Source: Streptomyces spinoverrucosus
GTDB lineage: Bacteria > Actinomycetota > Actinomycetes > Streptomycetales > Streptomycetaceae
Direction: 5' to 3'
Assembly: GCF_015712165.1 (NCBI RefSeq)
Contig: NZ_JADPZX010000001.1
Coordinates: 2,418,001 to 2,482,000, forward strand
DNA length: 64,000 bases
The position numbers were made by a program, and so were the translations under genes. This document shows, one piece after another, positions 28,608-46,535 of this stretch; the stretch's first letter is position 1; every line of letters starts with the position of its first letter. The notes beneath the pieces are model-generated. The model did not search any database, was not told where the DNA came from, and saw only the letters and a list, made by a program, of their open reading frames with translations.

Positions 28608-30239
<1,632 letters not shown>

Positions 30240-30276
30240 GTGTTCCGTAACTCCTTAGTGAGCGGTGTGTGCGGGT

Positions 30277-31203: not shown

Positions 31204-31309
31204 GGGGCACCTCCAGAAACACAACCAACACAAGGCCGCTACCCGACGATTCGGGGACGGCACGGAGAACCACCGTGAAAACTAAGGATCCCTCCGATCG
31301 TCGGCCATC

Positions 31310-31319
31310 GACAGCTGTC
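31310..31319. promoter_or_regulatory. Palindrome in the put operon / PucR divergent promoter
   Basis: GACAGCTGTC is a perfect 10-base palindrome between putB and the PucR-type gene. It may be part of the regulator's binding site, though a palindrome of this size can arise by chance. Confidence 0.35.
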
Positions 31320-31398
31320 ACGCATCCGTGCCGCAGATCTCAGACAGATGTATGAAGGCCCCGGGAGTGGTCTTCGGGAAATGGGAGAGAATGCCCGG

Positions 31399-32559
31399 GT
31401 GACGGCCGATTACCGGGGTGACTACCAGGAGCTGGTCGACGAGATCTCCGAGCTTCTGGGCGCCCCCGCGACACTGGAGAACCGCGACTTCGAGCTGATC
31501 GCCTTCGGCGCCTACGACAGCGAGGGCGACCTCGATCCGTCGGCCCTGGACCCGGTCCGCACCCGCTCGATCCTGACCCGCCGCTCCACGGCCGCCGTCC
31601 GCGCCTGGTTCGAGGGCTTCGGCATCACCCGGGCGACCGGCCCGGTACGCATTCCGCGCACCCCGGACGCGGGGGTGCACCGGGGCCGAATCTGTCTTCC
31701 GGTACGGCACCGGGGGGTCGTCCTCGGTTACGTCTGGCTGCTCGACGGCGAGCCCGGGCCCACGGACGCCCAGCTGGCCGCCGCCATGGAGGTGACCGGC
31801 CGGATCGGCGCGCTGCTCGCCGACGAGGCGCAGGCCGGCGCCGACCTCACCCGGGAGTTCCGGGCGGTGCTGACGGCGGAGCGCGGCTGGCAGCGCGACA
31901 TGGCCGTGGCCGCCCTGCGCACGGCCCTCGGCCCGCGCGGCGAGGGCCCGCACGCGGTGGTGTGCGTCGCCCCGTGGCCGTCCGCCGACCCGGAGGACGC
32001 CCCGTCGGCGCGGGCGGTACCGCACACGACGGCCCTGTGCACGATCCCGTGGGGCACGACCGGCCAGAGCCTGGCGGTGCTGGTCCGGCTGCGCTCCACG
32101 GACGTTCGCACTCCGGCGCTGACGGCGGCGGCCCGGCTGCTGAAGGGGGGTGCCCGGGCCGGCGTGGGCGACCCGCTGACCGGCCTCGCCGACCTGGGCG
32201 CGGCCTGGCAGGAGGCGACCGCCGCGGCCCGCGCGGCCCTGGCCGAACCCCGTCTCGGCCCGGTCGCCGAGTGGTCCCGCATCGGCCCGTACCGCCTGCT
32301 GACCGCCCTCCCCCCGGAGACGGCCCACGACCCCGTCATCGCCCCGCTGCTCTCCCCCGCCCACCACGAGCTGGCCCGCACGGCCGAGGTCTACCTGGAC
32401 TGTGCGGGCCAGGCCGCCCGCACCGCCGCCGAACTCGGCATCCACCGGCAGACGCTGTACTACCGGCTGTCCCGGGTGGAACAGCTGACGGGCCTCGACC
32501 TGGACGACGGGGAGGACCGGTTGCTGCTGCACATGGCGCTGAAGGGGGCCCGGCTGTAA
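31399..32559 (+). CDS. PucR-family regulator of proline catabolism
   Basis: A 386-residue regulator with a central GGDEF-like CdaR/PucR region and the C-terminal PucR helix-turn-helix (about 330-386: [52 protein letters not shown]). Divergent regulators of this family activate proline dehydrogenase genes in actinobacteria. GTG at [10 protein letters not shown] is preferred because GGAGAG lies 9 bases before it; two ATG codons 18 and 51 bases upstream are alternatives with weaker sites. Confidence 0.88.
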
Positions 32560-32608
32560 ACCGCGCGGTGCCGGGAAGCGGTGCCGACGGGGTGTGGCCG
32601 GGACCAAG

Positions 32609-32630
32609 CGCCCCCGAAACAGGGGCGTTT
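32609..32630 (+). terminator. Terminator after the PucR-type gene
   Basis: cgcccc (32609-32614) and ggggcg (32622-32627) form a short stem followed by TTT, about 50 bases past the stop. It marks the left edge of the accessory region. Confidence 0.65.
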
Positions 32631-32729
32631 GGGCGCGTGGAGTTCGGTTAGGCGCCTGAAGAAACACCAGTGCAAGCGGAGGACGGCGAGACGGAGGAAC
32701 CCGCGTGGTGTCTCGGGGGGCGTTAGGAC

Positions 32730-33722
32730 ATGCTTAATGCTCTTGGCCTGGATATCGTCACCGAAGCCGTCTACCGGGGGATGCTCGCCCACCCCGAGGA
32801 CGGAGCGGCGGAGCTGCGCGAACGGCTGGACCTGACGGAGGACGCCGTACGCGCCGCACTCAACCAGCTCAGCGAGATGGCCCTGATCCGCCCCGCGAGC
32901 GGGGACGAACAACGCATGCACGTGGTCGGGCCGCATGTCGCCGTCGAGATCCTGCTGGCCCGCCAGCAGGCCGAACTCGCGGCACAGCAGCAGCGGTTGG
33001 AGGAGAGCCGAGCCGCGGCGGTCCGGCTGCTGTCGGAGTCCGCGGGCCGGGATCCGGGCTCGCCCGGTGACGAGGTGGAGCACCTCAAGGGGCTCGACGA
33101 CATCCGCGACCATCTGGCGGAGATGAACCGGACCGTCGAGTCGGAGCTCATGGCGTTCGCCCCGGGCGGGCCGCAGACCCCGGACAACATGCGCAGTTCC
33201 CGTCCGTTGACCGAACATCTGCTCGGCCGGGGCGTCAGCGTGCGGACGACGTATCTGGACAGCATCCGCAACGACCCGGCCACCGTCGCCCACGCCGAGT
33301 GGCTCACCTCGGTCGGTGTGCAGGTGCGCACGGTGCCCACCCTGCCCAACCGGATGATCATCGCCGACCGCCGGGTCGCGGTCATCGCCACGGACAGTGA
33401 CGAGACGGCACAAGGTGCCGTCGTGCTGCGTACGCCCGGGGTGCTGGCCACGCTGTGCTCGTTGTTCGAGACCGTCTGGCAGACGGCGCGGCCGCTCGGC
33501 GCCGGTACGCCGCCGTCCTCCTCCGACGACCTCACCCCGCAGCAGCGTGAGGCCCTGCGACTGCTGGCCCAGGGAGCCACCGACGAGACCATCGCGAAAC
33601 GGCTCGGCGTCTCACCCCGTACGGCGCGGCGCATCTCCACCGGCCTGATGACCCACCTGGACGCGCGCAGCCGCTTCCAGGCGGGCGTGCACGCCGCCCG
33701 AAGAGGGCTCGTCAGCGACTGA
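32730..33722 (+). CDS. LuxR-type regulator with TrmB-like N-terminus
   Basis: A 330-residue regulator. Residues 1-60 form a winged helix of TrmB type (ELRERLDLTEDAVRAALNQLSEMALIRPA), followed by a coiled coil (about 75-115), a phospholipase D-like sensory region (about 130-245, with HLLGRGVSVRTTYLDSIRNDP), and a LuxR C-terminal helix-turn-helix (about 268-325: LTPQQREALRLLAQGATDETIAKRLGVSPRTARRI). This architecture is common beside streptomycete secondary metabolite clusters. It stands at the left edge of the ACP-ectoine operon in the same direction and is a plausible pathway regulator. Confidence 0.85.
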   Translation: MLNALGLDIVTEAVYRGMLAHPEDGAAELRERLDLTEDAVRAALNQLSEMALIRPASGDEQRMHVVGPHVAVEILLARQQAELAAQQQRLEESRAAAVRLLSESAGRDPGSPGDEVEHLKGLDDIRDHLAEMNRTVESELMAFAPGGPQTPDNMRSSRPLTEHLLGRGVSVRTTYLDSIRNDPATVAHAEWLTSVGVQVRTVPTLPNRMIIADRRVAVIATDSDETAQGAVVLRTPGVLATLCSLFETVWQTARPLGAGTPPSSSDDLTPQQREALRLLAQGATDETIAKRLGVSPRTARRISTGLMTHLDARSRFQAGVHAARRGLVSD

Positions 33723-33792
33723 TTTCCGGAAATCGACACGCCTCGCCGGTTACTGCCGGCCGGGCCGATACGCGGAAATTCGGCGGCATTTT

Positions 33793-33826
33793 CTGGACGG
33801 TTCGGGCCGTGGCCGGAACCGTCCAG
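33793..33826. terminator. Hairpin between LuxR-type gene and the small conserved gene
   Basis: Arms ctggacggttc and gaaccgtccag are perfect 11-base complements around a 12-base loop. No T-run follows, so its role (terminator or RNA-stabilising hairpin) is uncertain. Confidence 0.5.
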
Positions 33827-33860
33827 CGATGACGCATAGTGAGAATGCGCCGAACACGGC

Positions 33861-34184
33861 ATGGTCGATTTCATGTTTCTGGTGCATCTCACCTTCGAAC
33901 CACCTCCGGCCGGTAGTCCGCTGCCGGCCGACATCGCGTTTCTGATCAGTTCCTGTGCCACTCGCGCGGAGGCGTTGGAGCACATCACCGTCCATGCGGC
34001 CGCCAGGCCGTGCCCGGTCGTCGGCCTGTTTTTGCGGTGCCCCGACCTGGCGGCCGCCGAAGCGGCGGCTGACCGGCTGTGGCGGCGCACCGTGGACCGG
34101 TATCCGCAGCTCGGGGCATGCCGGTTGCGGCGTGCGGAGGTGCCGTTGCTTCTTCCCCAGATGATCTGGACGGACCCTCCATGA
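33861..34184 (+). CDS. Small conserved protein of unknown function, next to the regulator
   Basis: A 107-residue protein with pattern FLVHLTFEPP...LPADIAFLISSCATRAEALEHITVHAAARPCPVVGLFLRCPDLAAAEAAADRLWRR. Similar roughly 100-residue proteins, with the same 'EHxxVHAxARPxPVxGLxL' core, recur in streptomycetes next to regulators and natural-product genes (from memory). The fold appears alpha/beta with ferredoxin-like spacing. No catalytic motif is seen. Its place between the LuxR-type gene and the operon suggests a regulatory or accessory role. Confidence 0.65.
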   Translation: MVDFMFLVHLTFEPPPAGSPLPADIAFLISSCATRAEALEHITVHAAARPCPVVGLFLRCPDLAAAEAAADRLWRRTVDRYPQLGACRLRRAEVPLLLPQMIWTDPP

Positions 34185-34334
34185 GCCCCTTCGGGAGTCC
34201 CTTCACGAGCCCCGAGGCCTGAACGGGCCAGGGACGGTTGTGTCCACGGGAATCCCCTTCCCAGCGCGGCCGAGCCCGTCAAGAATCCTGTTCAACAGGA
34301 AATGAGTTCCACTGCCCGAGGGGGAAACAAAGCA

Positions 34335-34445
34335 ATGCGCAGTCATGCTCTTTCCGTGATTTCCGCCGGCGTCCAGGCACAGATATCCGCCCGGCCCCGC
34401 ACTCCCGAAATCCAGCAGACGTCCGAGGAGCCCGGCTGGCAGTAA
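34335..34445 (+). CDS. Possible small open frame (36 codons) just upstream of the ACP-ectoine operon
   Basis: A 36-codon frame starting MRSHALSVISAGVQ and ending SEEPGWQ. GAGGGGG lies about 11 bases before the ATG, a rather long spacing. The codons are less GC3-biased than in neighbouring genes (GCT, CTT, ATT, ATA), so it may be a leader, a small peptide or non-coding promoter DNA. The rest of 34185-34498 shows no gene; it should hold the operon promoter. Confidence 0.3.
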   Translation: MRSHALSVISAGVQAQISARPRTPEIQQTSEEPGWQ

Positions 34446-34498
34446 CCGGCGGTCATCGGCATGCGTACCCGCACCAGCGTGGCAGAAAGGCACCCCAT

Positions 34499-35803
34499 AT
34501 GAGCGCCGGAGCAGCCCGGATCCAGGGCCTGACCATGACCGCCCTCGCCGAGGAGTTCGGCACCCCCCTGTTCGTCTACGACACCGACGTCCTCCGCGAC
34601 ACCTACCGCCGGCTCCGTGAGCTGCTGCCCGAGACGGTGGACGTCTTCTACTCGCTCAAGGCCAACCCGAACATCAGCGTGTGCGCCTTCCTCGGCGCGC
34701 AGGGAGCCGGCGCCGAGGTCTCCTCCTACGCCGAGCTCGTCACCGCCCTGCGCGCCGGGGTGGCCCCGCGGGACATCATCTTCCTCGGGCCCGGCAAGGA
34801 CCCGCACGAACTGGCCGCCTGCGTCGACGCCGGCATCCATGCCGTGGTCTGCGAGTCCCTGGAGGAACTGCGGCGGCTGGACGCGCTGGTGGCGCGGCGC
34901 GGGACGAGCGAACCGTGTCCGGTGCTGCTCCGCGTCAATCCGTCGTTCGGTACCCAGGGCTCGGGGCTCGCCATGGGCGGCAAGCCCCGCCAGTTCGGCA
35001 TCGACGAGGACGCGGTGCGCGGGGCCAAGGAAACGCTGGCGCGCCTGTCGCACCTGCGGGTCCTGGGCGTGCACGCCTACATGGGCACGCGGTTCCTCCA
35101 CCACGGCGACGTCGTGCACAACACCGCCGAGATCCTGTCCCTGGCCGAGGACCTGGCCGGCCACCTCGGAGTCCCGCTGGAGACCGTGGACTTCGGTGGC
35201 GGGCTGGGGGTGGCGTACTTCGACAACGAGGAGGACCTCGATCTCGACGCCCTCGGGGCGGGGATCCGGGACACGGTCGGCGCCTTCTCCGCACGGCACC
35301 CGAAGTGCCGGCTGATCATGGAGCTGGGCCGCTTCCTGACCGCCACGGCAGGGACGTACGTCGTCCGCGCCCGCTATGTGAAGCAGTCCATGGGCGAGTG
35401 GTTCGTCGTCGCCGACGGCGGCACCAACCACCACATGGCCGCGGTCGGCATCGGCAGCTTCGTCCGACGCAACTTCCCCGTGGCCCACCTCGACCGCCCG
35501 GCGGAGCCGACCGTACGCCCGTACACACTCACCGGGCCGCTGTGCACCCCGAACGACGTCATCGCCAAGCGGGTGGCGCTGCCCGAGGTCCGGCCGGGAG
35601 ATCTGCTGGGCGTGGCGCGTTCGGGAGCCTACGGGCCGACCGCCTCACCCGGCCTCTTCCTCAGCCACGGGTTCCCCGCCGAGGTGATGGTCCATCGCGG
35701 CCGGGCCCGGCTGGTCCGGGAACGGGACACCACCGAGGACCTGCTGGCCAAGCAGCGCCTCGTCGACTTCGGCAGCGCCGCCGACCGGGCCGCGACGCCG
35801 TGA
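34499..35803 (+). CDS. BtrK/VinO-type PLP decarboxylase acting on ACP-bound amino acids (predicted)
   Basis: A 434-residue fold-type III decarboxylase of the LysA/DAP decarboxylase superfamily. PLP Lys54 lies in FYSLKANPN; DFGGGLGVAYF binds the phosphate; the active-site Cys349 is in GPLCTPND; SGAYG is near the end. Long stretches resemble BtrK of butirosin synthesis (IIF-GPGK, MGGxPRQFGxDE, ADGGTNHH), an enzyme that decarboxylates glutamyl-ACP, and the related VinO and FlvO. With AMP ligase and ACP genes in the same operon, an ACP-tethered diacid such as Asp, methyl-Asp or Glu is the likely substrate. Free diamino acid decarboxylation is the alternative. Start chosen by AGAAAGG at 8 bases. 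GTGA overlap with the next gene. Confidence 0.8.
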   Translation: MSAGAARIQGLTMTALAEEFGTPLFVYDTDVLRDTYRRLRELLPETVDVFYSLKANPNISVCAFLGAQGAGAEVSSYAELVTALRAGVAPRDIIFLGPGKDPHELAACVDAGIHAVVCESLEELRRLDALVARRGTSEPCPVLLRVNPSFGTQGSGLAMGGKPRQFGIDEDAVRGAKETLARLSHLRVLGVHAYMGTRFLHHGDVVHNTAEILSLAEDLAGHLGVPLETVDFGGGLGVAYFDNEEDLDLDALGAGIRDTVGAFSARHPKCRLIMELGRFLTATAGTYVVRARYVKQSMGEWFVVADGGTNHHMAAVGIGSFVRRNFPVAHLDRPAEPTVRPYTLTGPLCTPNDVIAKRVALPEVRPGDLLGVARSGAYGPTASPGLFLSHGFPAEVMVHRGRARLVRERDTTEDLLAKQRLVDFGSAADRAATP

Positions 35804-36708
35804 GCGGTGACCCCGTGCCGGTGGTCCGGATCGGCGTCGACGTGCTGGACCGGGACGAACTGCGCCGGCTGATCGGCTGGCCCTGGTTCCTGCGCTTCGG
35901 CTACGCCGCCGAGGAGTTGAGACGCGCCGACCGACTGGGGGCGGAGCGCCGGCTGGAGTTCCTGGCCGGGCGGTTCGCCGCCAAGGAGGCCGTGCTGAAG
36001 GTGCTCGGCACCGGGTTCCTGCACGGCGTCCCGCCGCGCGACATCTGCGTGGACCAGGACGACGACGGCGCGCCGTTGGTCCGGCTGAGGGGGCGCGCCG
36101 CAGGGCTGGGCCCGCCCGCGATCGCCCTGTCCATCACGCACAAGCAGAACGTGGTCGCGGCCGTGGCGCTCGGCACGTCCGCCCCGGCACCGCCGAGTCA
36201 TGTCAGCACGTTCGGAAACACGTTCGGAAAGGAGAGTGTCGCCATGCCCGTGGCGGACACCCACGACGAGCCCGAGGCATCCGCCTTCCTCCGCGTCCGC
36301 ATCGGCCAGGAGGACGCCCACTACGGCGGCGGCCTGGTGGACGGCGCCCATGTCCTGCGGCTCTTCGGCGACCTGGTCACCGAGATCACCGCCCGGACGG
36401 ACGGGGACGAGGGGCTGCTCGCCGAATACACCGGCATCCGCTTCCTCGCCCCGGTGCGGCCCGGCGACTACATCGAGGCGCGGGCGCGGCTGGTCCGCAG
36501 TACCCGGCTGCGCCGCATGGTCGAACTGGAGGCGCACAAGGTCATCGAGGCCCGCCCCGAGAAGGGCGTCAGCACCGTCGAGGTCCTCGGCACGCCGGTG
36601 CTGGTGTGCACGGCCGCCGCGACGACGGTGATCCCCCTGCGCAAGGCCGGAGCGAGGAAGCCGGGCCTCGCGCCCGCCACGAAGTCCACCGCCCTGAAGG
36701 AGGCTTGA
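35800..36708 (+). CDS. AcpS-type phosphopantetheinyl transferase fused to an aminoacyl-CoA ammonia-lyase-like hotdog
   Basis: A 302-residue frame with two domains. Residues 8-125 are a group I holo-ACP synthase: IGVDV with the Mg-binding Asp14, GRFAAKEAVLKVLG with Glu63, and LSITHKQNVVAAVAL. Residues about 160-285 form a hotdog domain whose DAHYGGGLVDGA (172-183) and DGDEGLL (201-207) match 3-aminobutyryl-CoA ammonia-lyase (Kal) and beta-alanyl-CoA ammonia-lyase. The first domain would prime the operon's ACP. The second may add or remove ammonia at the beta position of an acyl thioester. A strong AAAGGAGAG site precedes an in-frame ATG at 36244 between the domains, so a free hotdog protein may also be made. 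GTG start overlaps the previous stop. Confidence 0.82.
   Translation: MSGDPVPVVRIGVDVLDRDELRRLIGWPWFLRFGYAAEELRRADRLGAERRLEFLAGRFAAKEAVLKVLGTGFLHGVPPRDICVDQDDDGAPLVRLRGRAAGLGPPAIALSITHKQNVVAAVALGTSAPAPPSHVSTFGNTFGKESVAMPVADTHDEPEASAFLRVRIGQEDAHYGGGLVDGAHVLRLFGDLVTEITARTDGDEGLLAEYTGIRFLAPVRPGDYIEARARLVRSTRLRRMVELEAHKVIEARPEKGVSTVEVLGTPVLVCTAAATTVIPLRKAGARKPGLAPATKSTALKEA
36228..36236 (+). promoter_or_regulatory. Internal ribosome binding site between the AcpS and hotdog domains
   Basis: AAAGGAGAG lies 7 bases before the in-frame ATG at 36244 (MPVADTHDEP). It is the best Shine-Dalgarno site in this operon and sits exactly at the domain border, suggesting that two genes were joined by loss of a stop codon or that two products are made from one frame. 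Confidence 0.65.
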
Positions 36709-38354
36709 TGACGTCCGTTCAGCTCGACCCGCCACCGACCGACTCCGCACGGACCGACTCCACTCGTCCCGACGCCCTGCGGCCCGACCCGATACGGACC
36801 GGCGCCACCGAGCCCCCGTCCCCCCGCCTGCTGCACGACCTCCTCGACCGGGCCGCCGACCGCTTCCCGCATGCGGTCGCCCTGAGCACCACCGGCGCCC
36901 GCGTCACCTACCTGGAGCTCGCCCGGGCCAGCGTCCGACTGGCTGGGCGGCTGCACGAGCGGGGCGCCCGCCGCGGTGACCGTGTCCTGGTGAGCGCGTC
37001 GGACGGGCTCGGCACCGCCCTCGTCGTGTACGCGGCCTCCCGGCTCGGCTGTGCTTTCAGCGTCCTGCACGAGGACGTGCGCCACGGCGCCCTGGAGCAT
37101 GTCCTGCGCGACAGCGAACCCGTCGTCATGATCTGCGACGACCCCGGCGCCGGCCGCACCGCGGCGGAGCACCACGTACCCTTCCTGGCCCTCACGGAAC
37201 TCGTCCGGGACGCCCTCGACGGCGAGGACCCCACCGCCGCCCCGTTCCGGGATCCCGGCACCCTCGCGGTCGATCCGGTGTGCCTCATCTACACCTCGGG
37301 GACGACGGCACTGCCCAAGGCGGTGGTGTCCACACACCAGCAGGTCCTGTTCGCGGCCACCGCCATCCAGGCCTGCCTGAACTACCGCTCCGACGACGTC
37401 GTCTACTGCCCGCTGCCGCTCTCCTTCGACTACGGCCTCTACCAGCTGTATCTGGCGGCCCTGAGCGGTGCCCGGCTCCACCTGGGCACCGCGGCGGAGG
37501 CCGGCCCGCCCCTGCTGCGCAACCTTGAGCAGACCGGCGCCACCGTCCTGCCCGGCGTCCCCTCGGTCGCCGACCGGCTGGCCTGGCTGACCCGCCGCGG
37601 CAAAGGGACCCTGGGGCGCCTCCGGCTGCTCACCAACACCGGCGCCGCCCTCCCGGAGAGCACCATGAGCGCCCTGCGTCAGGCCCTGCCTGGGCTGCGC
37701 ATCCAGGTGATGTACGGCCTCACCGAATGCAAGCGCGCCGCGATCATGCCGCCGGACGGCGACCTGGAACATCCCGGGTCCTGCGGGCTGGCGCTGCCCG
37801 GCACCGAGATCCATGTGATCGGCGACGACGGCGAGCGGCTGCCGCCCGGCGAGATCGGGCAGATCGTGGTGCGCGGCCCGCACGTCATGGCCGGGTACTG
37901 GCGCCGCCCGGAACTCAACGCCGAGCGCTTCCCCCGCGCGGAGGGCCTCTTCCCCGAACTGCGCACCGGCGACTACGGCCGGCTGGACGATCAGGGCTTC
38001 CTCTACTTCTCGGGACGCCGTGACGACCTCTACAAGGAGCGCGGTTTCCGGATCAGCGCCACCGAGGTCGAGGCCGCCGCGCACCGCGTGCCGGGGTTGG
38101 CCTCCGCCGCCGTACTCCCGCCGACCGAAGGGCGCGGTGCGGTCCTCGCCGTGGTCACCGACCCGGACGCCGGCGAGATGAGCGCCGACGACGTCCGCGA
38201 GGGGATGCGGGAGCACATCGAGCCGTTCAAGATCCCCAGGCGCTGCGTCCGTCTCGACGCCCTGCCCACCAACGGCAACGGCAAGGTCGACCGGCGCGCG
38301 CTGGCCGCCCTGGTGGAGCGGGCCGCCGCCCCGCAGCCGCTCGCCGCGCAGTAG
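36708..38354 (+). CDS. AMP-forming amino acid/acyl-ACP ligase
   Basis: A 548-residue adenylation enzyme. The A3 loop LIYTSGTTALPKAVVSTH is near residue 194, A4 is PLSFDYGLYQ (Asp241 could hold a substrate amino group), A5 VMYGLTECKRAA, A7 TGDYGRLDDQGFLYFSGRRDD, and the A10 Lys526 lies in LPTNGNGKVDR. It is stand-alone, with no carrier domain, so it should load the separate ACP encoded next. FDYG is also found in prolyl-AMP ligases and exosortase-associated ligases, so the substrate cannot be read with certainty. An amino diacid for the neighbouring decarboxylase fits best. The ATG overlaps the previous stop by one base. The first 35 residues are Pro/Thr-rich and probably disordered. Confidence 0.85.
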   Translation: MTSVQLDPPPTDSARTDSTRPDALRPDPIRTGATEPPSPRLLHDLLDRAADRFPHAVALSTTGARVTYLELARASVRLAGRLHERGARRGDRVLVSASDGLGTALVVYAASRLGCAFSVLHEDVRHGALEHVLRDSEPVVMICDDPGAGRTAAEHHVPFLALTELVRDALDGEDPTAAPFRDPGTLAVDPVCLIYTSGTTALPKAVVSTHQQVLFAATAIQACLNYRSDDVVYCPLPLSFDYGLYQLYLAALSGARLHLGTAAEAGPPLLRNLEQTGATVLPGVPSVADRLAWLTRRGKGTLGRLRLLTNTGAALPESTMSALRQALPGLRIQVMYGLTECKRAAIMPPDGDLEHPGSCGLALPGTEIHVIGDDGERLPPGEIGQIVVRGPHVMAGYWRRPELNAERFPRAEGLFPELRTGDYGRLDDQGFLYFSGRRDDLYKERGFRISATEVEAAAHRVPGLASAAVLPPTEGRGAVLAVVTDPDAGEMSADDVREGMREHIEPFKIPRRCVRLDALPTNGNGKVDRRALAALVERAAAPQPLAAQ

Positions 38355-38408
38355 CCGGACCGGACAACCGACACCGAGCACCCCACCGAGAAACCCTGGA
38401 GGAATGTC

Positions 38409-38672
38409 ATGGACCGTCAGAACGTCGTGATCGCCCTGGAGGCCGCTCTCACCGACGCGCTGGAGCGGCCGGTCACCGGACTGCGCGGCGACATCCGGCT
38501 CTTCGACGACCTGCACCTGGACTCGACGACCATGCTGGAGATGCTCATGGCCCTGGAGAACTCCATCGGCCTGGTCGTCGATCCGGAGGAGCTGGACGCG
38601 GACGACTTCGTCACCGTGGACACCTTCACCGACTTCGTCCTGACGACGCTGCGAAACCAGGTACCGGCATGA
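38409..38672 (+). CDS. Stand-alone acyl carrier protein
   Basis: An 87-residue four-helix carrier protein. The phosphopantetheine attachment site is Ser39 in [14 protein letters not shown]. It resembles discrete aminoacyl carrier proteins of natural-product pathways rather than the fatty acid ACP. AMP ligase and AcpS genes lie directly upstream. A GGAGG site is 6 bases before the ATG, and the stop overlaps the ectB start (ATGA), which ties the ACP half of the operon to the ectoine half in one transcript. Confidence 0.92.
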
Positions 38673-39940
38673 CCATCATGCAGCCCGACCTGAGCGTCTT
38701 CACGGCCCTGGAGTCGGAGGTGCGCAGCTACTGCCGGGGCTGGCCCACCGTCTTCGCCCATGCGCGCGGCAGCCGGGTCTGGGACGAGGACGGCCACGCC
38801 TATCTCGACTTCTTCGCCGGCGCCGGGTCACTGAACTACGGCCACAACAACCCGGTCCTCAAACGGGCCCTGCTGGACTACCTGGAGTGCGACGGCCTCA
38901 CCCAGGGCCTGGACATGGCCACGACCGCAAAGCGCGCCTTCCTGGAAACGTTCGGGGAGACGATCCTCGGCCCGCGGGAGCTGCCCTACAAGGTCATGTT
39001 CCCGGGGCCGACCGGCACCAACGCCGTGGAGTCCGCGCTGAAGCTGGCGCGGAAGGTGAAGGGCCGCGAGGCCATCGTGTCGTTCACCAACGCCTTCCAC
39101 GGTATGTCCCTGGGCTCCCTCGCCGTGACCGGCAACGCCTTCAAACGCGCCGGCGCCGGCATCCCCCTCGTCCACGGCACGCCCATGCCCTTCGACCACT
39201 ACCTCGACGGCAAGGTCCCCGACTTCCTGTGGTTCGAGCGACTCCTGGAGGACCAGGGCTCCGGCCTCAACAAACCCGCCGCCGTGATCGTCGAAACTGT
39301 CCAGGGCGAGGGCGGCATCAACGTCGCCCGACCCGAATGGCTGCGCGCGCTCGCCGAGCTGTGCGAGCGCCAGGACATGCTGCTCATCGTCGACGACATC
39401 CAGATGGGCTGCGGCCGCACCGGCGCCTTCTTCTCCTTCGAGGAAGCAGGCATCGTCCCCGACATCGTCACCGTCTCCAAGTCCATCAGCGGCTACGGAC
39501 TGCCCATGTCGCTCTGCCTGTTCAAGCGCGAGCTGGACCTGTGGGAGCCGGGCGAGCACAACGGCACCTTCCGCGGCAACAACCCCGCCTTCGTCACCGC
39601 CACCGCCGCCCTGGGCGCGTACTGGGCCGAGGGCGGCGTGATGGAGAAGCAGACCCTCGCGCGCGGCGAGCAGATCGAACAGGAGTTGCGCGCGCTGTAC
39701 GACGCGCACCCGTCGGAGGTGGCCGCGTTCCGGGGGCGGGGCCTGGTGTGGGGCGTCGAGTTCGGCGACCCGTCGCGGGCCGCCCGGGTCGCCGGGCGCG
39801 CGTTCGACCTCGGCCTGCTCGTCGAGACCTCCGGAGCGCAGGGCGACGTCGTCAAGATCCTCCCCGCGCTGACCATCACGCCCGACGAGCTCGACGAGGG
39901 CCTGCGCGTCCTCGCCCGCGCGGTCCGCGAAACCGCCTGA
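38669..39940 (+). CDS. ectB: L-2,4-diaminobutyrate aminotransferase EctB
   Basis: A 423-residue class III aminotransferase that makes L-2,4-diaminobutyrate from aspartate semialdehyde and glutamate, the first step of ectoine synthesis. It is close to canonical streptomycete EctB over its length: [59 protein letters not shown], and PLP Lys271 in [15 protein letters not shown]. It shows no sign of changed function. It overlaps the ACP gene by 4 bases. Unusually, ectA is not upstream of it. Confidence 0.95.
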
Positions 39941-40005
39941 GCCAAGGGGCCGACCGCCCGACCGCCCGACCGAAAGCGCAACCGCCCGATCGAAGAAGGA
40001 GCACC

Positions 40006-40409
40006 ATGATCGTCCGTTCGTTCAAGGACATCGAAGGCACCGACCGGCATGTGAAGGCCGCGTCCGGCACCTGGGAGAGCAAGCGGATCGTCCTGGCCGG
40101 CGAGAAGGTCGGTTTCTCCCTGCACGAGACCACCGTCTACGCCGGCACCGAGACGTCGATGTGGTACGCCAACCACATCGAGGCCGTCCTCTGCGTCGAG
40201 GGCGAGTCGGAGCTGACCAACGAGGAGACCGGCGAGAAGCACTGGATCACCCCCGGCACGATGTACCTCCTCGACGGCCACGAGCGGCACACGCTGCGGC
40301 CGAAGACCGACTCCCGCTACATCTGCGTGTTCAATCCGCCGGTCACCGGCCGGGAGGACCACGACGAGAACGGCACGTACCCCTCCTCACCGACGCCGAG
40401 GCGGCCTGA
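40006..40409 (+). CDS. ectC: Ectoine synthase EctC, 3' end frameshifted into ectA
   Basis: A cupin-type L-ectoine synthase that closes N-acetyl-diaminobutyrate to the tetrahydropyrimidine ring. Residues 1-124 are canonical ([69 protein letters not shown]). After TYP the frame changes: as written it reads SSPTPRRPD and runs on into ectA with no stop. With one extra base after tac-ccc, the normal tail [10 protein letters not shown] and a TGA at 40407 would appear. This is a one-base deletion or a sequencing error. GAAGAAGGAG precedes the ATG. The read-through frame, 40006-40986, would be a 326-residue EctC-EctA fusion. Confidence 0.9.
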
Positions 40410-40410
40410 C

Positions 40411-40986
40411 ATGCCGGCGCAGCTGCGGCAGAACGCACCGGCCCCGGCCCGCAAGCAGGCGGTGTTCCGCACGCCGACGCCGGACGACGGCTTCGCGGTG
40501 TGGGAGCTGGTGGAGAACACCCCCGGCCTGGACTCCAACAGCCCGTACGCGTACGTCCTGTGGTTCCGGGACTTCGCCGACTGCTCCCTGGTGGCCACCG
40601 TCGACGACGAGATCGTCGGCTTCCTCACCGGCTACCGCCGCCCGGACGAGCCGGAGACGTACTTCGTGTGGCAGACCGCCGTCAGCCCGCGGCACGGCAT
40701 CCCGTTCCTCGGCGTGAAGCTCTTCGACGCCGCGGCCGAACGGCAGCGGTCCCGTGGCGCGCGCTTCGTCGAGGCCAGCGTCTCGGCCGAGAACCGGTCC
40801 ATCCTCATGGTGATCAAGCAGTACGCCCGCAGGCGCGCCGCGCCGGTCACCGAGCGGGTCCTCTTCCCCGGCGAGTGGCTGGGCGAGGGCCATCACGACG
40901 AGATCCTCCAGCGCGTCGGCCCGCTGGCCCCGACGACGGCCGACACCACGACCCCGACCTCCACCACGAAGGAGACCGCCCGATGA
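40411..40986 (+). CDS. ectA: EctA-like GNAT acyltransferase with an altered acyl-CoA loop
   Basis: A 191-residue GNAT protein aligning with diaminobutyrate acetyltransferase: [91 protein letters not shown] and the FPGEW...HHDEIL end. In canonical EctA the acetyl-CoA pyrophosphate loop reads HRGRGLA or similar; here it is HGIPFLG, without the R-G-x-G pattern. The donor may therefore be something other than acetyl-CoA, for example an acyl-ACP from the same operon. It may be made separately from its own ATG (GAGGCGG 6 bases upstream) or as part of the EctC fusion. Stop overlaps ectD (ATGA). Confidence 0.82.
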
Positions 40987-41873
40987 CCACCACCCTGCGC
41001 CCCGACCTGTACCCCACCCGCGTCACCGGCGAGGCCGTCCCCCAGCCGCGGGTCGACCCGGTCGTCTGGGGCGACGCCCCCGGCCCGCTCGGCCAGGAGC
41101 AGCTCGACCACTACGAGTCCCGCGGCTACCTCGTCCTCGACAACCTGCTCACCGCCGACGAGGTGGAGACCTACCGCGCCGAGCTGCTGCGCCTGGGGCG
41201 GGACCCGGAGCTGCGGTCGAGTGAGCGCGTGGTGCTGGAGCCCGACTCCGACCGGATCCGCTCGGTGTTCGAGGTGGAGAAGGTCAGCGAGGTCTTCGCC
41301 CGGCTGCTGTTCTCGTCGCGACTCACCGACATCGCCCGGCAGGTGCTGGGCTCGGAGGTGTACGTCCACCAGAGCCGGGTCAACTACAAGCCCGGCTTCG
41401 GCGGTGCCGAGTTCGACTGGCACTCGGACTTCGAGACCTGGCACGCGGAGGACGGCATGTCCCGGCCGCGCGCGTTCAGCGTCTCCGTCGCGTTGAGCGA
41501 GAACCACCCCTTCAACGGCCCGCTGCTGGTCATGCCGGGCACCCACAAGACGTTCGTTCCGTCGGTCGGTGAGACGCCGCAGGACTTCCACAAGGAGTCG
41601 CTGCGGGTGCACCGCATCACGGTGGGCTCGCCCGGCCAGGAACAGCTGACGCGGATGGCCGAGCGGCACGGCATCGACCAGATCACCGGTCCGGCCGGCT
41701 CGGCGGTGATGTTCGACTCGAACCTGCTGCACGGCTCCAACGGCAACATCACGCCGTTCCCGCGCTCGAACATCTTCATCGTCTACAACAGCGTGGAGAA
41801 CACCCTCGGGGAGCCCTTCGCGGCGCCCAAGCCGCGGCCCCAGCACCTCGGCAACCGGGAGTTCACCGGCTGA
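40983..41873 (+). CDS. ectD: Ectoine hydroxylase EctD
   Basis: A 296-residue Fe(II)/2-oxoglutarate dioxygenase that forms 5-hydroxyectoine. The family signature is intact: [15 protein letters not shown] (iron ligands His147 and Asp149), [15 protein letters not shown], the distal iron ligand His250 in [11 protein letters not shown] and the 2-oxoglutarate Arg261 in PFPRSN. The ectoine-binding segment [11 protein letters not shown] is close to canonical. Last gene of the operon, followed by a strong terminator. If the upstream enzymes make a modified ectoine, this would be its hydroxylase. Confidence 0.93.
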
Positions 41874-41888
41874 CGTTCCGACTTGCCC

Positions 41889-41919
41889 GCGCGGGGCGGC
41901 CGTTGTGGCCGCCCCGCGC
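41889..41919. terminator. Bidirectional terminator after ectD
   Basis: Perfect 13-base arms gcgcggggcggcc and ggccgccccgcgc with a GTTGT loop, between the convergent ectD and GlxA-type regulator genes. It marks the end of the ACP-ectoine operon. Confidence 0.92.
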
Positions 41920-41923
41920 TCCG

Positions 41924-42934
41924 TCATGCCACGGCCCCGGTCCCCCGGAACGTCGCCCGGTAGGCGCTCGGCGAGGTGCCCACCGCGGCGTGGAAGTGCT
42001 GGCGCAGATTGGCGGCCGTGCCGAGACCCACCTGTGCGGCCACCTGGTCCACCGGCAGGTCGGACTCCTCCAGCAGCTCCCGGGCGCGCTCGACGCGCTG
42101 CTGGATCAGCCAGTTCATCGGTGTCGTACCGACCTCCTCGCGGAAGCGCCGGGTGAAGTTCCGTACGCTCATGGCCTCCTGGGCCGCCATCTGCCCCAGG
42201 GTGACGGGTTCGTGCAGCCGCCGCAGCGCCCAGCCGCGGGCGGCCGCCGTGGACGGCGAGGCCGGTTCCGGTACCGGGCGGCGTACGTACTGCACCTGGC
42301 CGCCCTCCCGGTGCGGCGGCACGACGGTGCGCCGGGCGACGTCATTGGCGACGGCCATGCCGAAGTCGCGCCGGATCATGTGCAGGCACAGGTCGATCCC
42401 GGAGGCGCAGCCCGCCGAGGTGAGGACGTCCTCGCCGTCGGTGTAGAGCACGTTCGCGTCCACGTCGACCTGTGGGAACAGCCGCGCGAACCGCTCGGCG
42501 TACCGCCAGTGCGTGGTCGCAGTCCGCCCGTCGAGCAGTCCGGCCGAGGCGAGCACGAAGGCACCCGTGCAGATCGAGGCCACGCGCGTGCCCGGACGGA
42601 CGCGGGCGAGGGCGTCGGCGAGCGGCCCCGAGAGCTCGGGCGTCTCCTGCTCGTAGTCGTCGTACGAGGACAGCACGATCACCGTGTCGGCCTCCGCCAG
42701 CGCCTCGGGCCCGTGCCCGACCCGGACGGTGAAGTCCCCGTCCGTCGCGACCTCGCCCGCGCGCAGGGCGCAGGTGACGACCTCGTACAGCGGCTCTCCG
42801 TCCGCCGACGCGCCCTCGCGGGCCTGGCCGAACAGCTGGTGGACGATGCCCAGCTCGATCGGGAGCGTCATCTGGCGGACCAGCACGGCGATGTGATGGC
42901 GCGTGGGGTGGGAGAAGACAGTCCTGACAGCCAT
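41924..42934 (-). CDS. GlxA-family regulator (DJ-1/PfpI domain plus AraC helix-turn-helix)
   Basis: A 336-residue regulator. Residues about 8-185 form a DJ-1/PfpI-like amidase fold with the nucleophile-elbow pattern SICTGAFVLASAGLLDGR, and residues about 225-325 are an AraC-type double helix-turn-helix (EPVTLGQMAAQEAMSVRNFTRRFREEVGTTPMNWL, then LGTAANLRQHFHAAVGTSPSAYR). Such proteins respond to small nitrogenous ligands. It is divergent from the adjacent MFS transporter, its probable target, and convergent with ectD. ATG at MAVRTVFSHP is preferred (AAGGA 8 bases upstream); two earlier ATGs are possible. Confidence 0.88.
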   Translation of the reverse strand: MAVRTVFSHPTRHHIAVLVRQMTLPIELGIVHQLFGQAREGASADGEPLYEVVTCALRAGEVATDGDFTVRVGHGPEALAEADTVIVLSSYDDYEQETPELSGPLADALARVRPGTRVASICTGAFVLASAGLLDGRTATTHWRYAERFARLFPQVDVDANVLYTDGEDVLTSAGCASGIDLCLHMIRRDFGMAVANDVARRTVVPPHREGGQVQYVRRPVPEPASPSTAAARGWALRRLHEPVTLGQMAAQEAMSVRNFTRRFREEVGTTPMNWLIQQRVERARELLEESDLPVDQVAAQVGLGTAANLRQHFHAAVGTSPSAYRATFRGTGAVA

Positions 42935-43004
42935 GGCCACATCCTTGCGCATCCCGGCCATCGAGACACTCGTTCCGGGCCATGTACGTCGGCAGGGTGG
43001 AACC

Positions 43005-44306
43005 ATGGCTCAGCACACACAGACGCCCTCCCCCACGTCCGCCCAACCGCCCGCTCCACGCTCCGGTTCGCTCCGCGCCTGGGTCATGGCCGTCATCGCG
43101 GGCGCCGCCATCGTGACCGCCGGTGCCTTCACGACCGTGCCGGGCCTGCTGGTCACCCCGCTGCACGAGCAGTACGCGTGGGACCGCGGCGAGATCGCGC
43201 TGGCCGCCTCGGTCAACATGGTGCTCTTCGGCGTCACCGCCCCCTTCGCGGCGGCGCTGATGGACCGCGCCGGCATCCGCCGGGTGGCGGCGGGCGCCAT
43301 GCTGCTCATCGCGGCCGGCGCCCTGCTCACCCAGTGGATGGCCACCTCCTGGCAACTGGTCGCGTACTGGGGCGTGTTGATCGGGCTCGGCAGCGGCTGC
43401 CTCACCATGACCTTCGCGGCCCAGATCACCGGCCGGTGGTTCGAGCGGCGGCGCGGCCTGGTCACCGGCGCGCTGAGCGCGTCCAGCCACCTGGGCCAGT
43501 TGCTCTTCCTGCCGCTGCTCGCCTGGGCGGTGGACCGCAACGGGTGGCGGCCGCCGGTGGTGACGCTGGCGCTTGCGGCGCTGACGGTGGCCGCCCTGGT
43601 GTGGCTGTTCCTGCGCGACCACCCGGCCGACATCGGCGCCAAGCCGTACGGGGGCGAGCGGTTCGTGCCCAAGCCCGCGCCCGCCGAAGGGGCCGCCCGG
43701 CGCACCGTGAAGGTCCTGTTCACCGCCGCCCGCACCGGCACGTTCTGGCTGCTGGCCGGGATGTTCGTCATCTGCGGCGCCTCCACCAACGGCATCATGT
43801 GGAGCAACTGGGTGCCCGCCGCCCACGACCACGGCATGCACGCGACCGTCGCGGCCTCGCTGCTGTCGCTGATCGGGATCTTCTCCGCGCTGGGCGCGGT
43901 CGCGTCCGGCTGGCTCACCGACCGCTTCGATCCGCGTCGGCTGCTGACCGTCTACTTCACCGTCCGCGCGCTCACCCTGCTCGCACTGCCCCTGCTGTTC
44001 GCCTCGACGGTACGCCCGACCATGGTCGTCTTCGCCGTCGTCTACGGCCTCGTCGACGTGGCGACGGTGCCCCCGGTCATCGCCCTGTGCCAGCGGGCGT
44101 ACGGCGACGACGGGCCCATCGTGTTCGGCTGGGCCAACTCCGCCCACCAGTTGGGCGCGGGCGTCTCGGCCTTCCTCGGCGCCACCGCCCGCGACCTGTT
44201 CGGCTCGTACGACGTGGTGTGGATGGGGCTGAGCGCCATCTGCCTGGTGGCCGCCCTGCTGGCCCTGGTCGTCCGGGCCCCGCGGCGGATCAGCGCCGCC
44301 GCGTAG
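43005..44306 (+). CDS. Major facilitator superfamily transporter
   Basis: A 433-residue protein with 12 predicted transmembrane helices, beginning near residue 22 (AWVMAVIAGAAIVTAGAFTTVPGLLV). The MFS loop 2-3 motif appears as MDRAGIRRVAAG and the loop 8-9 motif as DRFDPRRL. It resembles oxalate/formate antiporter-like and other exporter/importer MFS proteins of actinobacteria; the substrate is unknown. It is divergently read from the GlxA-type regulator. Its 3' end overlaps the convergent TetR gene by 17 bases. Confidence 0.88.
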   Translation: MAQHTQTPSPTSAQPPAPRSGSLRAWVMAVIAGAAIVTAGAFTTVPGLLVTPLHEQYAWDRGEIALAASVNMVLFGVTAPFAAALMDRAGIRRVAAGAMLLIAAGALLTQWMATSWQLVAYWGVLIGLGSGCLTMTFAAQITGRWFERRRGLVTGALSASSHLGQLLFLPLLAWAVDRNGWRPPVVTLALAALTVAALVWLFLRDHPADIGAKPYGGERFVPKPAPAEGAARRTVKVLFTAARTGTFWLLAGMFVICGASTNGIMWSNWVPAAHDHGMHATVAASLLSLIGIFSALGAVASGWLTDRFDPRRLLTVYFTVRALTLLALPLLFASTVRPTMVVFAVVYGLVDVATVPPVIALCQRAYGDDGPIVFGWANSAHQLGAGVSAFLGATARDLFGSYDVVWMGLSAICLVAALLALVVRAPRRISAAA

Positions 44307-44874
44307 CCTCGGCGACCACCTGCCGCAGGCCTTCGGTGAGCTCCTGGCCGGTCGGCGCGGTCTTGGGATCGAAGGTCCACTGGGCGATGAGGCCGGTCAT
44401 CAGCGTGACGTAGAACTTGCCGAGGGTGTCCACGGCCTCGTCCGGTACGTCCTCCTCGCGTCCGCCCATGAGCAGCGGGATGAGGCCGCGCCCGGCCTCC
44501 CGCTGCGCCCGCGCGAGGTGTTCGCGCACCTCGGGCAGCTGGTCGCCCATGACGACGATCTCCATGCTGAGCCGCCACATCGAGCCGGGCTCCCGCATGG
44601 TGCCGATGATGTTCGACCAGACCTGGCCGAACCGCTCCAGGGAGCCGGGTGCACCGGTGATCTGCCCCTCGCCGCCCTCGAACTCGTCCCCCATCCCCTC
44701 CACCAGCGCGACGTACGCCTGGGCGAGGAGGGCGTCCTTGGAGCCGTAGTGGTAGCCGATGGAGGCGAGGTTGGTCCCCGACTCCTTGACGATGTCGCGC
44801 GCGGTGGTGCGCACGAAGCCCTTCTCCAGCAGGCAGCGCTTGGCGCCTTCCAGGAGGTCCTCACGGTGTCCCAT
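44290..44874 (-). CDS. TetR/AcrR-family regulator
   Basis: A 194-residue TetR protein with helix-turn-helix EGAKRCLLEKGFVRTTARDIVKESGTNLASIGYHYGSKDALL (residues 9-50) and a C-terminal ligand domain. It is divergent from a 14-helix drug exporter, the usual arrangement for a repressor of an efflux pump. The promoter between them carries two direct copies of TATACAGnCGT. Confidence 0.9.
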   Translation of the reverse strand: MGHREDLLEGAKRCLLEKGFVRTTARDIVKESGTNLASIGYHYGSKDALLAQAYVALVEGMGDEFEGGEGQITGAPGSLERFGQVWSNIIGTMREPGSMWRLSMEIVVMGDQLPEVREHLARAQREAGRGLIPLLMGGREEDVPDEAVDTLGKFYVTLMTGLIAQWTFDPKTAPTGQELTEGLRQVVAEATRRR

Positions 44875-44896
44875 GGCGCCATCGTAGCGCGACTCA

Positions 44897-44920
44897 TATA
44901 CAGGCGTCCTATACAGACGT
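44897..44920. promoter_or_regulatory. Direct repeats TATACAGnCGT between the TetR gene and the efflux gene
   Basis: TATACAGgCGT (44897-44907) and TATACAGaCGT (44910-44920), 13 bases apart, lie in the divergent promoter 22 bases before the TetR start. They may be operator half-sites or overlap the -10 boxes of the TetR promoter. Confidence 0.45.
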
Positions 44921-44958
44921 ACTAGACAACCGTTTAAGACGTCCGTACAGTCGCCGCC

Positions 44959-46482
44959 ATGACGACGAACCCGACGAACACGCGCGCCGGACGCCGCGAA
45001 TGGACCGCGCTCGGCGTGCTGATGCTGCCGCTGCTGCTGGTCTCGATGGACGTCTCGGTGCTGTACTTCGCGATCCCGGCGATCAGCGCGGACCTGGAGC
45101 CCACCGGCACCCAGCTGCTGTGGATCTTCGACATCTACGCCTTCGTCCTGGCCGGCCTGCTGATGACGATGGGCTCGCTCGGCGACCGCATCGGCCGCCG
45201 CAGGCTGCTGCTGATCGGCGCCGCCGCGTTCGGCGCCGCCTCACTGGTGGCGGCGTACGCGAACAGCGCCGAGACGCTGATCGCGGCCCGCGCCGTCCTC
45301 GGCATCGGCGGCGCGACCCTGATGCCGTCGACGCTGGCCCTGGTCCGCACGCTCTTCACCGACCCCGCCCAGCGGGCGAAGGCGATCGCGACGTGGTCCG
45401 GCGTGATGACGGCGGGCGTCGCACTCGGCTCGGTGCTGAGCGGGGTGCTCGTGGAGTTCTTCTGGTGGGGCTCGGTCTTCCTGGTCAACCTGCCCGCGAT
45501 GGCTCTGCTGCTGCTCCTCGGCCCGGTCCTGCTCCCCGAGTCGAAGGACCCGGCCCCCGGCCGCTTCGACTGGCTGAGCGTGCCGCTGTCGATGGCGGCG
45601 GTCCTGCCCGTCATCTACGGCCTGAAGGAGATCCCGTCGAACGGCTGGAACGTCGGCTACGTCGTCTCGATCACCGTCGGCCTGCTCTTCGCGACGCTGT
45701 TCGTGCAGCGCCAGCGCACGGCGACGTCCCCGATGATCTCCCCGGCCCTGTTCCGGGGCCGCGGCTTCAGCCCCGCCGTCGCCCTCAACCTGGTCGCGAC
45801 CTTCGGGGTGATGGGCTCGACGTACTTCACCACGCAGTACCTGCAGTCGGTGCTCGACAAGAGCGCGCTGGAGGCAGCGCTGTGGGCCCTGCTGCCGTCG
45901 CTGCCCATCGGCATCGCGGCACCGCTGGCGACCCGGCTCGTCCAGAAGGGGATGGACCGCGCCTACGTCGTCACCGCGGGGTTCGCGATCGCGGCGAGCG
46001 GTTACGCGCTGCTGGCCTTCGCCGGCACGGACGCGCTGGGGCTGGTGCTGCTCGCGTGCGGAGTGCTCGCCTCCGGGCTGGTGATGGTCATGTCCCAGAT
46101 CATGGACCTCGCCCTGGGCAGCGTCCCGGTGGAGCGGGCGGGCTCCGCTTCCTCCCTCATGGAGACCAGCGGGGAGTTCGGCGGCGCCCTCGGCATGGCG
46201 GTGCTCGGATCGATCGGTACGGCGATCTACCGCCATGAGATCCCGGCCTCGGCACCGGACGCCGCCCGCGAGACGCTGGGCGGAGCGCTGGCGATCGCCG
46301 ATCAGGTCCCGGGACTGGCCGCGGCAGCGCGGGCGGCGTTCGCCGGCGGCATGCAGGGGGCGGCGATCGCGGGGGCGGCGGTGCTGGTGGGGGCGGCGGT
46401 GCTGGCGACGGCGACGCTGCGCCGGGTGCGGAACATGCAAAGCGCCGGACAGACTGACCAACTCAGCCCGTCCGGCGTTTGA
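44959..46482 (+). CDS. DHA2-type MFS multidrug exporter (14 helices)
   Basis: A 507-residue drug:H+ antiporter of the EmrB/QacA/LfrA type. The first helix holds MLPLLLVSMDVSVLYFAIPAI (motif D1 like), loop 2-3 is GDRIGRRRLLLIGAAAFG, and motif C appears as SGVMTAGVALGSVLSGVLVE. Related to SmvA and Streptomyces antiseptic pumps. The TetR gene upstream likely represses it. It may export the product of the neighbouring operon or confer resistance. Its stop lies in a Streptomyces repeat. Confidence 0.92.
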   Translation: MTTNPTNTRAGRREWTALGVLMLPLLLVSMDVSVLYFAIPAISADLEPTGTQLLWIFDIYAFVLAGLLMTMGSLGDRIGRRRLLLIGAAAFGAASLVAAYANSAETLIAARAVLGIGGATLMPSTLALVRTLFTDPAQRAKAIATWSGVMTAGVALGSVLSGVLVEFFWWGSVFLVNLPAMALLLLLGPVLLPESKDPAPGRFDWLSVPLSMAAVLPVIYGLKEIPSNGWNVGYVVSITVGLLFATLFVQRQRTATSPMISPALFRGRGFSPAVALNLVATFGVMGSTYFTTQYLQSVLDKSALEAALWALLPSLPIGIAAPLATRLVQKGMDRAYVVTAGFAIAASGYALLAFAGTDALGLVLLACGVLASGLVMVMSQIMDLALGSVPVERAGSASSLMETSGEFGGALGMAVLGSIGTAIYRHEIPASAPDAARETLGGALAIADQVPGLAAAARAAFAGGMQGAAIAGAAVLVGAAVLATATLRRVRNMQSAGQTDQLSPSGV

Positions 46483-46535
46483 GGACGAGGCCCGTTCAGG
46501 GCCGAAGCGGGGGCCTGGGGGCGGCAGCCCCCAGG
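46465..46535. repeat. Streptomyces gene-end repeat plus terminator hairpin
   Basis: agcccgtccggcgtttgagg acgaggcc (46465-46492) is a motif that recurs at the 3' ends of streptomycete genes; here it contains the exporter's stop codon. Downstream, cctgggggc and gcccccagg (46514-46535) form a 9-base hairpin with a GGCA loop between the convergent exporter and serA genes. Confidence 0.7.

Follow-up and report, generated by a model that had tools for sequence, protein, structure and literature searches.

An ectoine-type operon of Streptomyces spinoverrucosus that probably draws its acyl group from a carrier protein

Here we describe an operon of Streptomyces spinoverrucosus in which genes for a carrier protein, and for enzymes that may charge it, are joined to genes of the ectoine pathway. 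It lies in a 64,000-nucleotide stretch of contig NZ_JADPZX010000001.1 (the window, meaning the whole stretch that was analysed, within which all positions are given). Gene calls and family scans (Pfam and the curated NCBIfam cut-offs) place seven open reading frames (ORFs) for eight functions at 34499–41873, all on the + strand:

34499..35803, + strand: BtrK/VinO-type decarboxylase dependent on pyridoxal phosphate, 434 residues (DEC)
35800..36708, + strand: phosphopantetheinyl transferase (AcpS) in frame with a hotdog protein of the beta-alanyl-coenzyme A (CoA)/3-aminobutyryl-CoA ammonia-lyase type
36708..38354, + strand: VinN-type stand-alone adenylation enzyme, 548 residues (the ligase, LIG)
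38409..38672, + strand: stand-alone acyl carrier protein (ACP), 87 residues, LDS motif with Ser39
38669..39940, + strand: diaminobutyrate--2-oxoglutarate transaminase (EctB; TIGR02407)
40006..40410, + strand: ectoine synthase (EctC; NF009806), part of a 326-residue ORF at 40006–40986
40411..40986, + strand: EctA-family GNAT (EctA2; TIGR02406), its loop replaced by PRHGIPFLG (residues 93–101)
40983..41873, + strand: ectoine hydroxylase (EctD; TIGR02408) of a separate clade

The initial annotation had read the locus as eight genes on one strand with overlapping or near-abutting ends, the ACP gene running into ectB. The families and the strand were right, four junctions overlap by 1–4 bases (the two gaps measure 54 and 65 bases), and the ACP gene shares 4 bases (38669–38672) with ectB; the number of ORFs is seven, EctC and EctA2 forming one and AcpS and the hotdog protein another. 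EctC has its own stop in each of ten relatives compared. At 40380–40415 its C-terminal tail is altered in the window, which suggests a slight shift of frame, either genuine or introduced by sequencing. The AcpS–hotdog ORF begins with a GTG codon that overlaps the DEC stop codon and contains, at 36244, a further in-frame ATG preceded by AAAGGAG, a start that could yield a free hotdog protein. We considered that this fusion might be an artefact and set the idea aside: the two parts share an uninterrupted frame in 12 of the 17 other loci that have both (different frames in 5) and in many database proteins.

The ectoine-type proteins pass the curated cut-offs for their families: EctB with 642.7 bits (cut-off 552.2), EctC with 185.3 (128), EctA2 with 133.6 against the EctA model (120.6) and EctD with 398 (336.5). 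ACP matches Pfam PP-binding narrowly (E 4e-4; 21.0 bits, cut-off 20.8), with an AsbD-like match below its cut-off, and the AcpS part matches Pfam ACPS (E 8e-12).

Relatives of the operon were drawn from a scan of genome contigs with the window's EctC–EctA ORF as query (the best 80 of 270 loci, ranked by match to the window protein and thus not a random sample, so that the 392-genome count given below is the fairer one) and from a plasmid search. All 18 retrieved loci that hold the hotdog gene also hold DEC, LIG, ACP and EctA2, together with AcpS (17 loci), EctC (15), an EctB match (14, that of L061 being cut and divergent) and EctD (9); L054 starts inside DEC and is assessable only downstream of that point. 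Because the arrangement recurs in 18 loci, we do not regard it as a product of chance. They span Streptomyces and Lentzea records, two linear Streptomyces plasmids (L086 and L087) and a Rhizobium gallicum plasmid, pRgalIE4872a, which is typed as conjugative, and they include the following variants:

Type A (window, L003, L005–L007): all ectoine genes
Type B (L054, L061, L067, L087): operon without EctB or EctD
Type C (L060, Lentzea): without EctD
Type D (L008, L070, L075): EctB and EctA2, with no match to EctC or EctD
Type E (L010, L013, L016, L019, L086): EctD, EctB, EctA2, cytochrome P450, ferredoxin, reductase and EctC at 56–58%

L004 resembles type A, but a contig end truncates it and leaves no hotdog gene visible; it is therefore outside the 18. 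In type D a P450 gene follows EctA2 in L008, and an ORF of similar size does so in L075. The Rhizobium gallicum locus (L088) carries a major facilitator superfamily (MFS) gene, EctA2, LIG, ACP, EctC and a single 574-residue protein in which DEC and the hotdog protein are fused, as would be expected if the two carried out consecutive steps. A second Rhizobium plasmid, p3 of R. bangladeshense (L089), holds a remnant (MFS, a piece of EctA2, ACP and EctC) broken by several insertion sequences.

The feature that sets EctA2 apart from EctA is a loop. We take [RQ]xxG[LIVM][AGS] to be the acetyl-CoA-binding motif, at the GNAT loop for the CoA pyrophosphate; in an alignment it occupies the loop columns of 60/60 canonical EctA sequences and of 0/25 EctA2 sequences (window included). 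The EctA2 loop instead reads [HNT]G[IV][PS]xLG in 24 of the 25, the remaining one, from the remnant L089, being HGIAALG. On the side of the acceptor, L-2,4-diaminobutyrate (DABA), the motifs LDxNSxYxY and VWQ are largely kept. An unanchored pattern applied to 107 database matches gave 102 of the HG type, two canonical (P0225 and P0226) and three other (P0215, P0224 and P0227). EctA2 proteins from all cluster types, including those of Rhizobium and of the halogenase-containing clusters described below, form one clade (support 1.0) against the 60 canonical sequences. The closest PDB matches of EctA2 by sequence are EctA proteins, and its AlphaFold model (mean predicted local distance difference test score, pLDDT, 92.6) is closest in fold to EctA of Paenibacillus lautus and Bordetella. 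Given the absence of the GNAT loop and the position of EctA2 mostly beside a carrier protein (where its neighbourhood can be read), the simplest account would be that it takes its acyl group from that carrier and not from acetyl-CoA.

EctA2 is found in 12 of 392 same-genus genomes (E <= 1e-42), and by coordinates the hotdog gene lies within 5 kilobases of it in nine; of the other three, two (G102 and G181) have a halogenase-containing cluster and one (G232) a remnant. Among the retrieved loci, EctA2 stands without the hotdog gene near contig ends (L004, L011), in halogenase-containing clusters (L034/L037/L038, L099/L100), in remnants (L089, L096/L131) and in another cluster (L101/L102/L124). 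The remnant in G232 (L131, near a contig end) consists of a truncated EctC, EctA2, AraC and MFS genes beside what appear by eye to be transposase-like ORFs, a picture of cluster decay. In L124 (9638–10150) and L101 (1480–1992) there is a further EctA-like GNAT (47–48%) without the canonical loop; it follows a protein judged by eye to be ATP-grasp-like, in L124 near two adenylation enzymes, and is perhaps a third use of the EctA2 clade.

What speaks most strongly against EctA2 being an acetyltransferase is that two different non-acetyl acyl supplies adjoin it. In L034, L037 and L038, EctA2 (50–54% identity) is accompanied by EctC, EctD, a phosphopantetheinyl transferase, ACP, a ligase, an SDR-family protein, a NeuD-like enzyme and a halogenase. 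The halogenase of L037 passes the curated CmlS model (1074.9 bits, cut-off 900), and those of L034 and L038 are 96–97% identical to it. CmlS makes the dichloroacetyl group of chloramphenicol, and these clusters probably represent a dichloroacetyl-fed ectoine-like pathway. The records include Streptomyces eurythermus (L037) and S. achromogenes (L038); L125 (G181) matches L037 at 100% identity in each protein compared and is therefore not an independent case.

The first supply is the set of four genes that opens the operon. DEC has BtrK as its best PDB match (2j66/7ru7, E 7e-84) and scores 358.8 bits, below the cut-off of 478.45, with TIGR03099; LIG has VinN (3wvn, E 4e-113) and scores 306.5 bits, below the cut-off of 592.35, with TIGR03098. 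Asp230 and Arg331 of VinN, which we take to be substrate-binding residues, are kept in 23/23 ligases compared (the window, the 18 cluster loci and four from L127–L130), and Ser299 is replaced in all of them by the bulkier threonine. The hotdog protein (36244–36708) has a single PDB match, beta-alanyl-CoA:ammonia lyase 2 (4mtu/4mzq, E 1.4e-11), with which it shares the core AHY.G.LV.GA and the positions D43 and E47; H26, Y27, D43 and E47 are among the residues that do not vary across the 23 family sequences aligned. Hotdog genes occur in 21 of the 392 genomes (E <= 1e-18), with eight weaker matches at 41–45% identity. In four of the hotdog-bearing genomes (G126, G124, G335 and G049; L127–L130) the cassette stands without EctA2. 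It adjoins the end of a type I polyketide synthase (PKS) with a thioesterase and two KAS III-like genes in L127, L128 and L130, and a nonribosomal peptide synthetase (NRPS) condensation domain, a thioesterase and one KAS III-like gene in L129. From this occurrence next to PKS or NRPS genes, the cassette appears to be a transferable source of a single acyl-ACP derived from an amino diacid, and the products of these four loci probably carry an acryloyl or beta-alanyl unit.

The downstream enzymes were compared as well. Using the EctC catalytic and ligand residues, and the strand with Cys-104 and Phe-106, that are named in part of PMC6344544, we found the catalytic and ligand residues to match those of canonical Streptomyces EctC in 15/15 variant rows, a comparison that covers the variants outside the divergent type E (five rows). 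Two residues that neighbour Cys-104 and Phe-106 on their strand are F-C in all 61 canonical sequences and S-F or S-Y in 19 of the 20 variants, type E included, so that a bulky residue has changed place on this active-site strand; in the window S103 and Y105 take the place of F-C. The changed residues would face the active-site pocket, since residues alternate along a strand. In a tree of rows with at least 75% of the query length and without L001, L083 and L085, the EctD proteins of the present clusters fall into one clade with those of the CmlS type (support 0.735). The EctB proteins form no single clade, as is expected if the EctB substrate is unchanged. Elsewhere in the same genome a canonical ectD-ectC-ectB-ectA run lies at C1:6.987–6.991 Mb, and a further ectoine synthase is present in 12/12 EctA2 genomes.

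The observed gene content, families, linkage, loop loss, kept catalytic residues and second ectABCD suggest the following route, for which we infer every substrate and product. AcpS would convert ACP to holo-ACP. LIG would adenylate L-aspartate and load it on ACP through the side-chain carboxylate, DEC would remove the alpha-carboxylate to give beta-alanyl-ACP, and the hotdog lyase would eliminate ammonia to give acryloyl-ACP. EctB would supply DABA from aspartate semialdehyde, and EctA2 would transfer the acyl group from ACP to the 4-amino group of DABA, giving N4-acryloyl-DABA. EctC would then close the ring to the 2-vinyl analogue of ectoine, EctD would hydroxylate C5 of 2-vinylectoine, and an MFS protein encoded downstream would export the final product. 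Aspartate is favoured as the substrate because it calls for no extra enzyme, and FlvN, which is related to VinN, uses aspartate according to a section of PMC11284099.

We hold this explanation as a whole, an ectoine pathway with a carrier-protein acyl donor leading from aspartate through acryloyl-ACP to 2-vinyl-(hydroxy)ectoine, to be somewhat better than an even bet. Its parts differ in strength. That the acyl donor is carrier-bound and non-acetyl is quite likely, whereas acryloyl, the best-fitting candidate for the acyl group, is put forward tentatively, with beta-alanyl and methacryloyl as possible alternatives. The operon probably makes a new relative of ectoine with a different side group and not the ordinary salt protectant. 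A wider proposal, to which we assign even chances, is that EctA2 represents a family of carrier-dependent DABA acyltransferases that would make the ectoine pathway a producer of scaffolds. Different ACP-bound acyl groups, acryloyl from aspartate in this operon and dichloroacetyl in the CmlS-type clusters, would then lead to (hydroxy)ectoines varied at C2 that are secreted as specialised metabolites, the genes being plasmid-borne across phyla. The initial annotation had likewise supposed that an ACP-bound acyl group replaces acetyl-CoA and that no pathway of this kind had been described, and had suggested looking for co-occurrence of the genes and for a separate canonical ectABCD. The last two are both present, as reported above; with the EctA loop loss, the EctC change and the CmlS-type parallel they speak for the idea of an ACP-bound donor, its acyl group remaining a proposal. 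As to novelty, no ACP-fed ectoine pathway and no CmlS-type EctA2 cluster was found in the open-access literature, the scope of our search being that literature and not subscription papers or preprints; as far as could be seen, the gene combination and the EctA2 clade are undescribed and the parts all belong to known families.

Several observations weigh against this reading. The loop loss in EctA2 was judged on sequence. The loci were retrieved by way of EctC and EctA matches, so that linkage is visible from that side only; the hotdog module is thereby seen to come complete, which does not mean that every EctA2 has a hotdog partner. To our knowledge, the known ammonia lyases of the hotdog protein's family act on CoA and not on ACP thioesters, and the protein scores 137.8 bits with the model for 3-aminobutyryl-CoA ammonia lyase (NF052388), below the cut-off of 160. 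The Rhizobium EctC has F-A at the two strand positions, with F and not S at the one that would face the pocket. EctC has no match in L008, L070 and L075 within the stretches examined, and with three of 18 loci lacking it ring closure may not be universal; EctB was found neither on pRgalIE4872a nor on the Streptomyces plasmid of L087 (two of the three plasmids searched). The EctD product-binding residues Q127, H144, T149, W150 and R280, as named in part of PMC6890836, are kept in 13/13 rows, which ordinary ectoine as the product would explain equally well.

The rival that survives best, although we consider it unlikely, is that the amine is kept: EctA2 would move beta-alanyl, EctC would form 2-(2-aminoethyl)ectoine, and the hotdog protein would be an editing thioesterase or a weak relic. 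Its score below the curated lyase cut-off fits this, hotdog proteins are often thioesterases, and a few of its database relatives are named thioesterase or hydrolase, a further point against the acryloyl route. The VinN/VinO pathways, as treated in part of PMC11284099, retain the amine. Set against this are the constant company that the hotdog protein keeps with DEC, LIG, ACP and EctA2 in the 18 loci, the core and the D43 and E47 positions shared with its sole PDB match, the four invariant residues and the Rhizobium DEC–hotdog fusion.

It is doubtful, to a slightly greater degree, that the cassette starts from another amino diacid, such as 3-methylaspartate, which would lead through methacryloyl to 2-isopropenyl-ectoine. 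LIG is nearest to VinN, which loads 3-methylaspartate onto VinL for decarboxylation by VinO on the carrier (described in part of PMC11284099), and a methylaspartate mutase homologue elsewhere in this genome, with homologues in 7/12 EctA2 genomes, makes that substrate possible and so also tells against aspartate. However, the genes scanned over 28608–48084 include no mutase, the other 5/12 EctA2 genomes have no mutase match, and the exchange of VinN S299 for the bulkier threonine holds in every ligase. Beta-glutamate was set aside, as the genome has no match to a 2,3-aminomutase (LAM_C); so was gamma-aminobutyrate from glutamate, for which BtrK offers a precedent, as a beta-lyase cannot eliminate a gamma-amine and LIG is VinN-like.

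That the operon is a second set for ordinary ectoine and hydroxyectoine, its ACP genes serving another product, is improbable. EctB, EctC and EctD pass their cut-offs and keep their catalytic residues, and EctA2 passes the EctA cut-off too, but a canonical ectABCD is already in the genome and the acetyl-CoA loop is lost in every EctA2 aligned. The cassette and EctA2 remain linked across phyla, and in Rhizobium and type B the stretches examined show EctA2, EctC and the ACP cassette but no EctD match. Least probable is an end product other than a free ectoine, whether an acyl-DABA or some larger compound derived from it, with EctC dispensable. Although three loci lack an EctC match, two of them (L008 and L075) with a P450-sized ORF after EctA2, and type E has P450, ferredoxin and reductase between EctA2 and a divergent EctC, EctC is present in 15/18 loci, including the Rhizobium stretch whose only other ectoine gene is EctA2, and the window has EctC and EctD in an operon without a P450.

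Beyond the operon, the window holds three genes with counterparts in the relatives:

32781..33722, + strand: LuxR-type regulator with a C-terminal GerE helix-turn-helix
41924..42961, - strand: AraC regulator with a DJ-1/PfpI domain, FtrA/GbdR-like
43086..44306, + strand: MFS transporter, kin to lactate/oxalate-formate MFS proteins (below the cut-offs)

Homologues of the LuxR-type gene (57–73%) lie upstream of DEC in 10 of the 18 hotdog loci, and the AraC gene adjoins the operon also in L004–L007, L054, L061 and L087. MFS homologues occur in relatives including the Rhizobium plasmid (41% there), and the MFS protein is a probable exporter of the operon product. A TetR regulator gene and an MFS efflux gene of the LfrA/QepA kind, the latter under the cut-offs of those models, point away from each other at 44290–46482; neither has a match among the DEC-bearing relatives scanned. 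The outer flanks are serA (46546–48084) on one side and proline-breakdown genes (28608–31191) on the other.

The usual view of ectoine is that of an invariant final product derived from acetyl-CoA, and clusters with ectC are annotated as ectoine by genome-mining tools. If the proposed pathway is right, the actual product of some of these clusters is a different compound. A cyclic amidine with a vinyl group at C2 would be electrophilic, possibly a warhead and not an osmolyte. Two signatures, the HG[IV]xxLG-type loop of EctA2 and the change from F-C to S-F/Y in EctC, separate such clusters in the sets compared.

In our classification the operon is a variant ectoine pathway, one that would function as an aminoacyl-ACP module supplying an ectoine cyclase. 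With canonical ectABCD it has in common EctB, EctC and EctD, along with EctA's fold and DABA side; it differs by the loss of the EctA loop, by the added ligase, ACP, decarboxylase and lyase-like protein, by clade-specific changes in EctC and EctD and by its coexistence with a normal ectABCD at another genomic site. With the modules VinN/VinO/VinL (vicenistatin), FlvN (fluvirucin) and BtrI/BtrK (butirosin) it shares an ACP and a pyridoxal phosphate-dependent decarboxylase acting on a carrier-bound amino diacid and, with the Vin and Flv modules, a stand-alone adenylation enzyme; unlike them it continues with a lyase-like hotdog protein and with DABA as acceptor through a GNAT, and none of the other parts of a VinN-type module (second aminoacylation enzyme, acyltransferase, PKS) is found among the genes scanned at 31399–46482. 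Acl2 (4mtu/4mzq) and 3-aminobutyryl-CoA ammonia lyase share the hotdog family and the AHY.G.LV.GA core, but here the hotdog protein is fused to AcpS or the decarboxylase and placed with ACP, and its thioester is therefore probably carried on ACP. The CmlS-type clusters (L034, L037, L038 and L125) are alike in their EctA2-clade enzyme, EctC, EctD, ligase and ACP, and differ in that a chloramphenicol-type halogenase takes the place of the aspartate-type cassette in the acyl supply.

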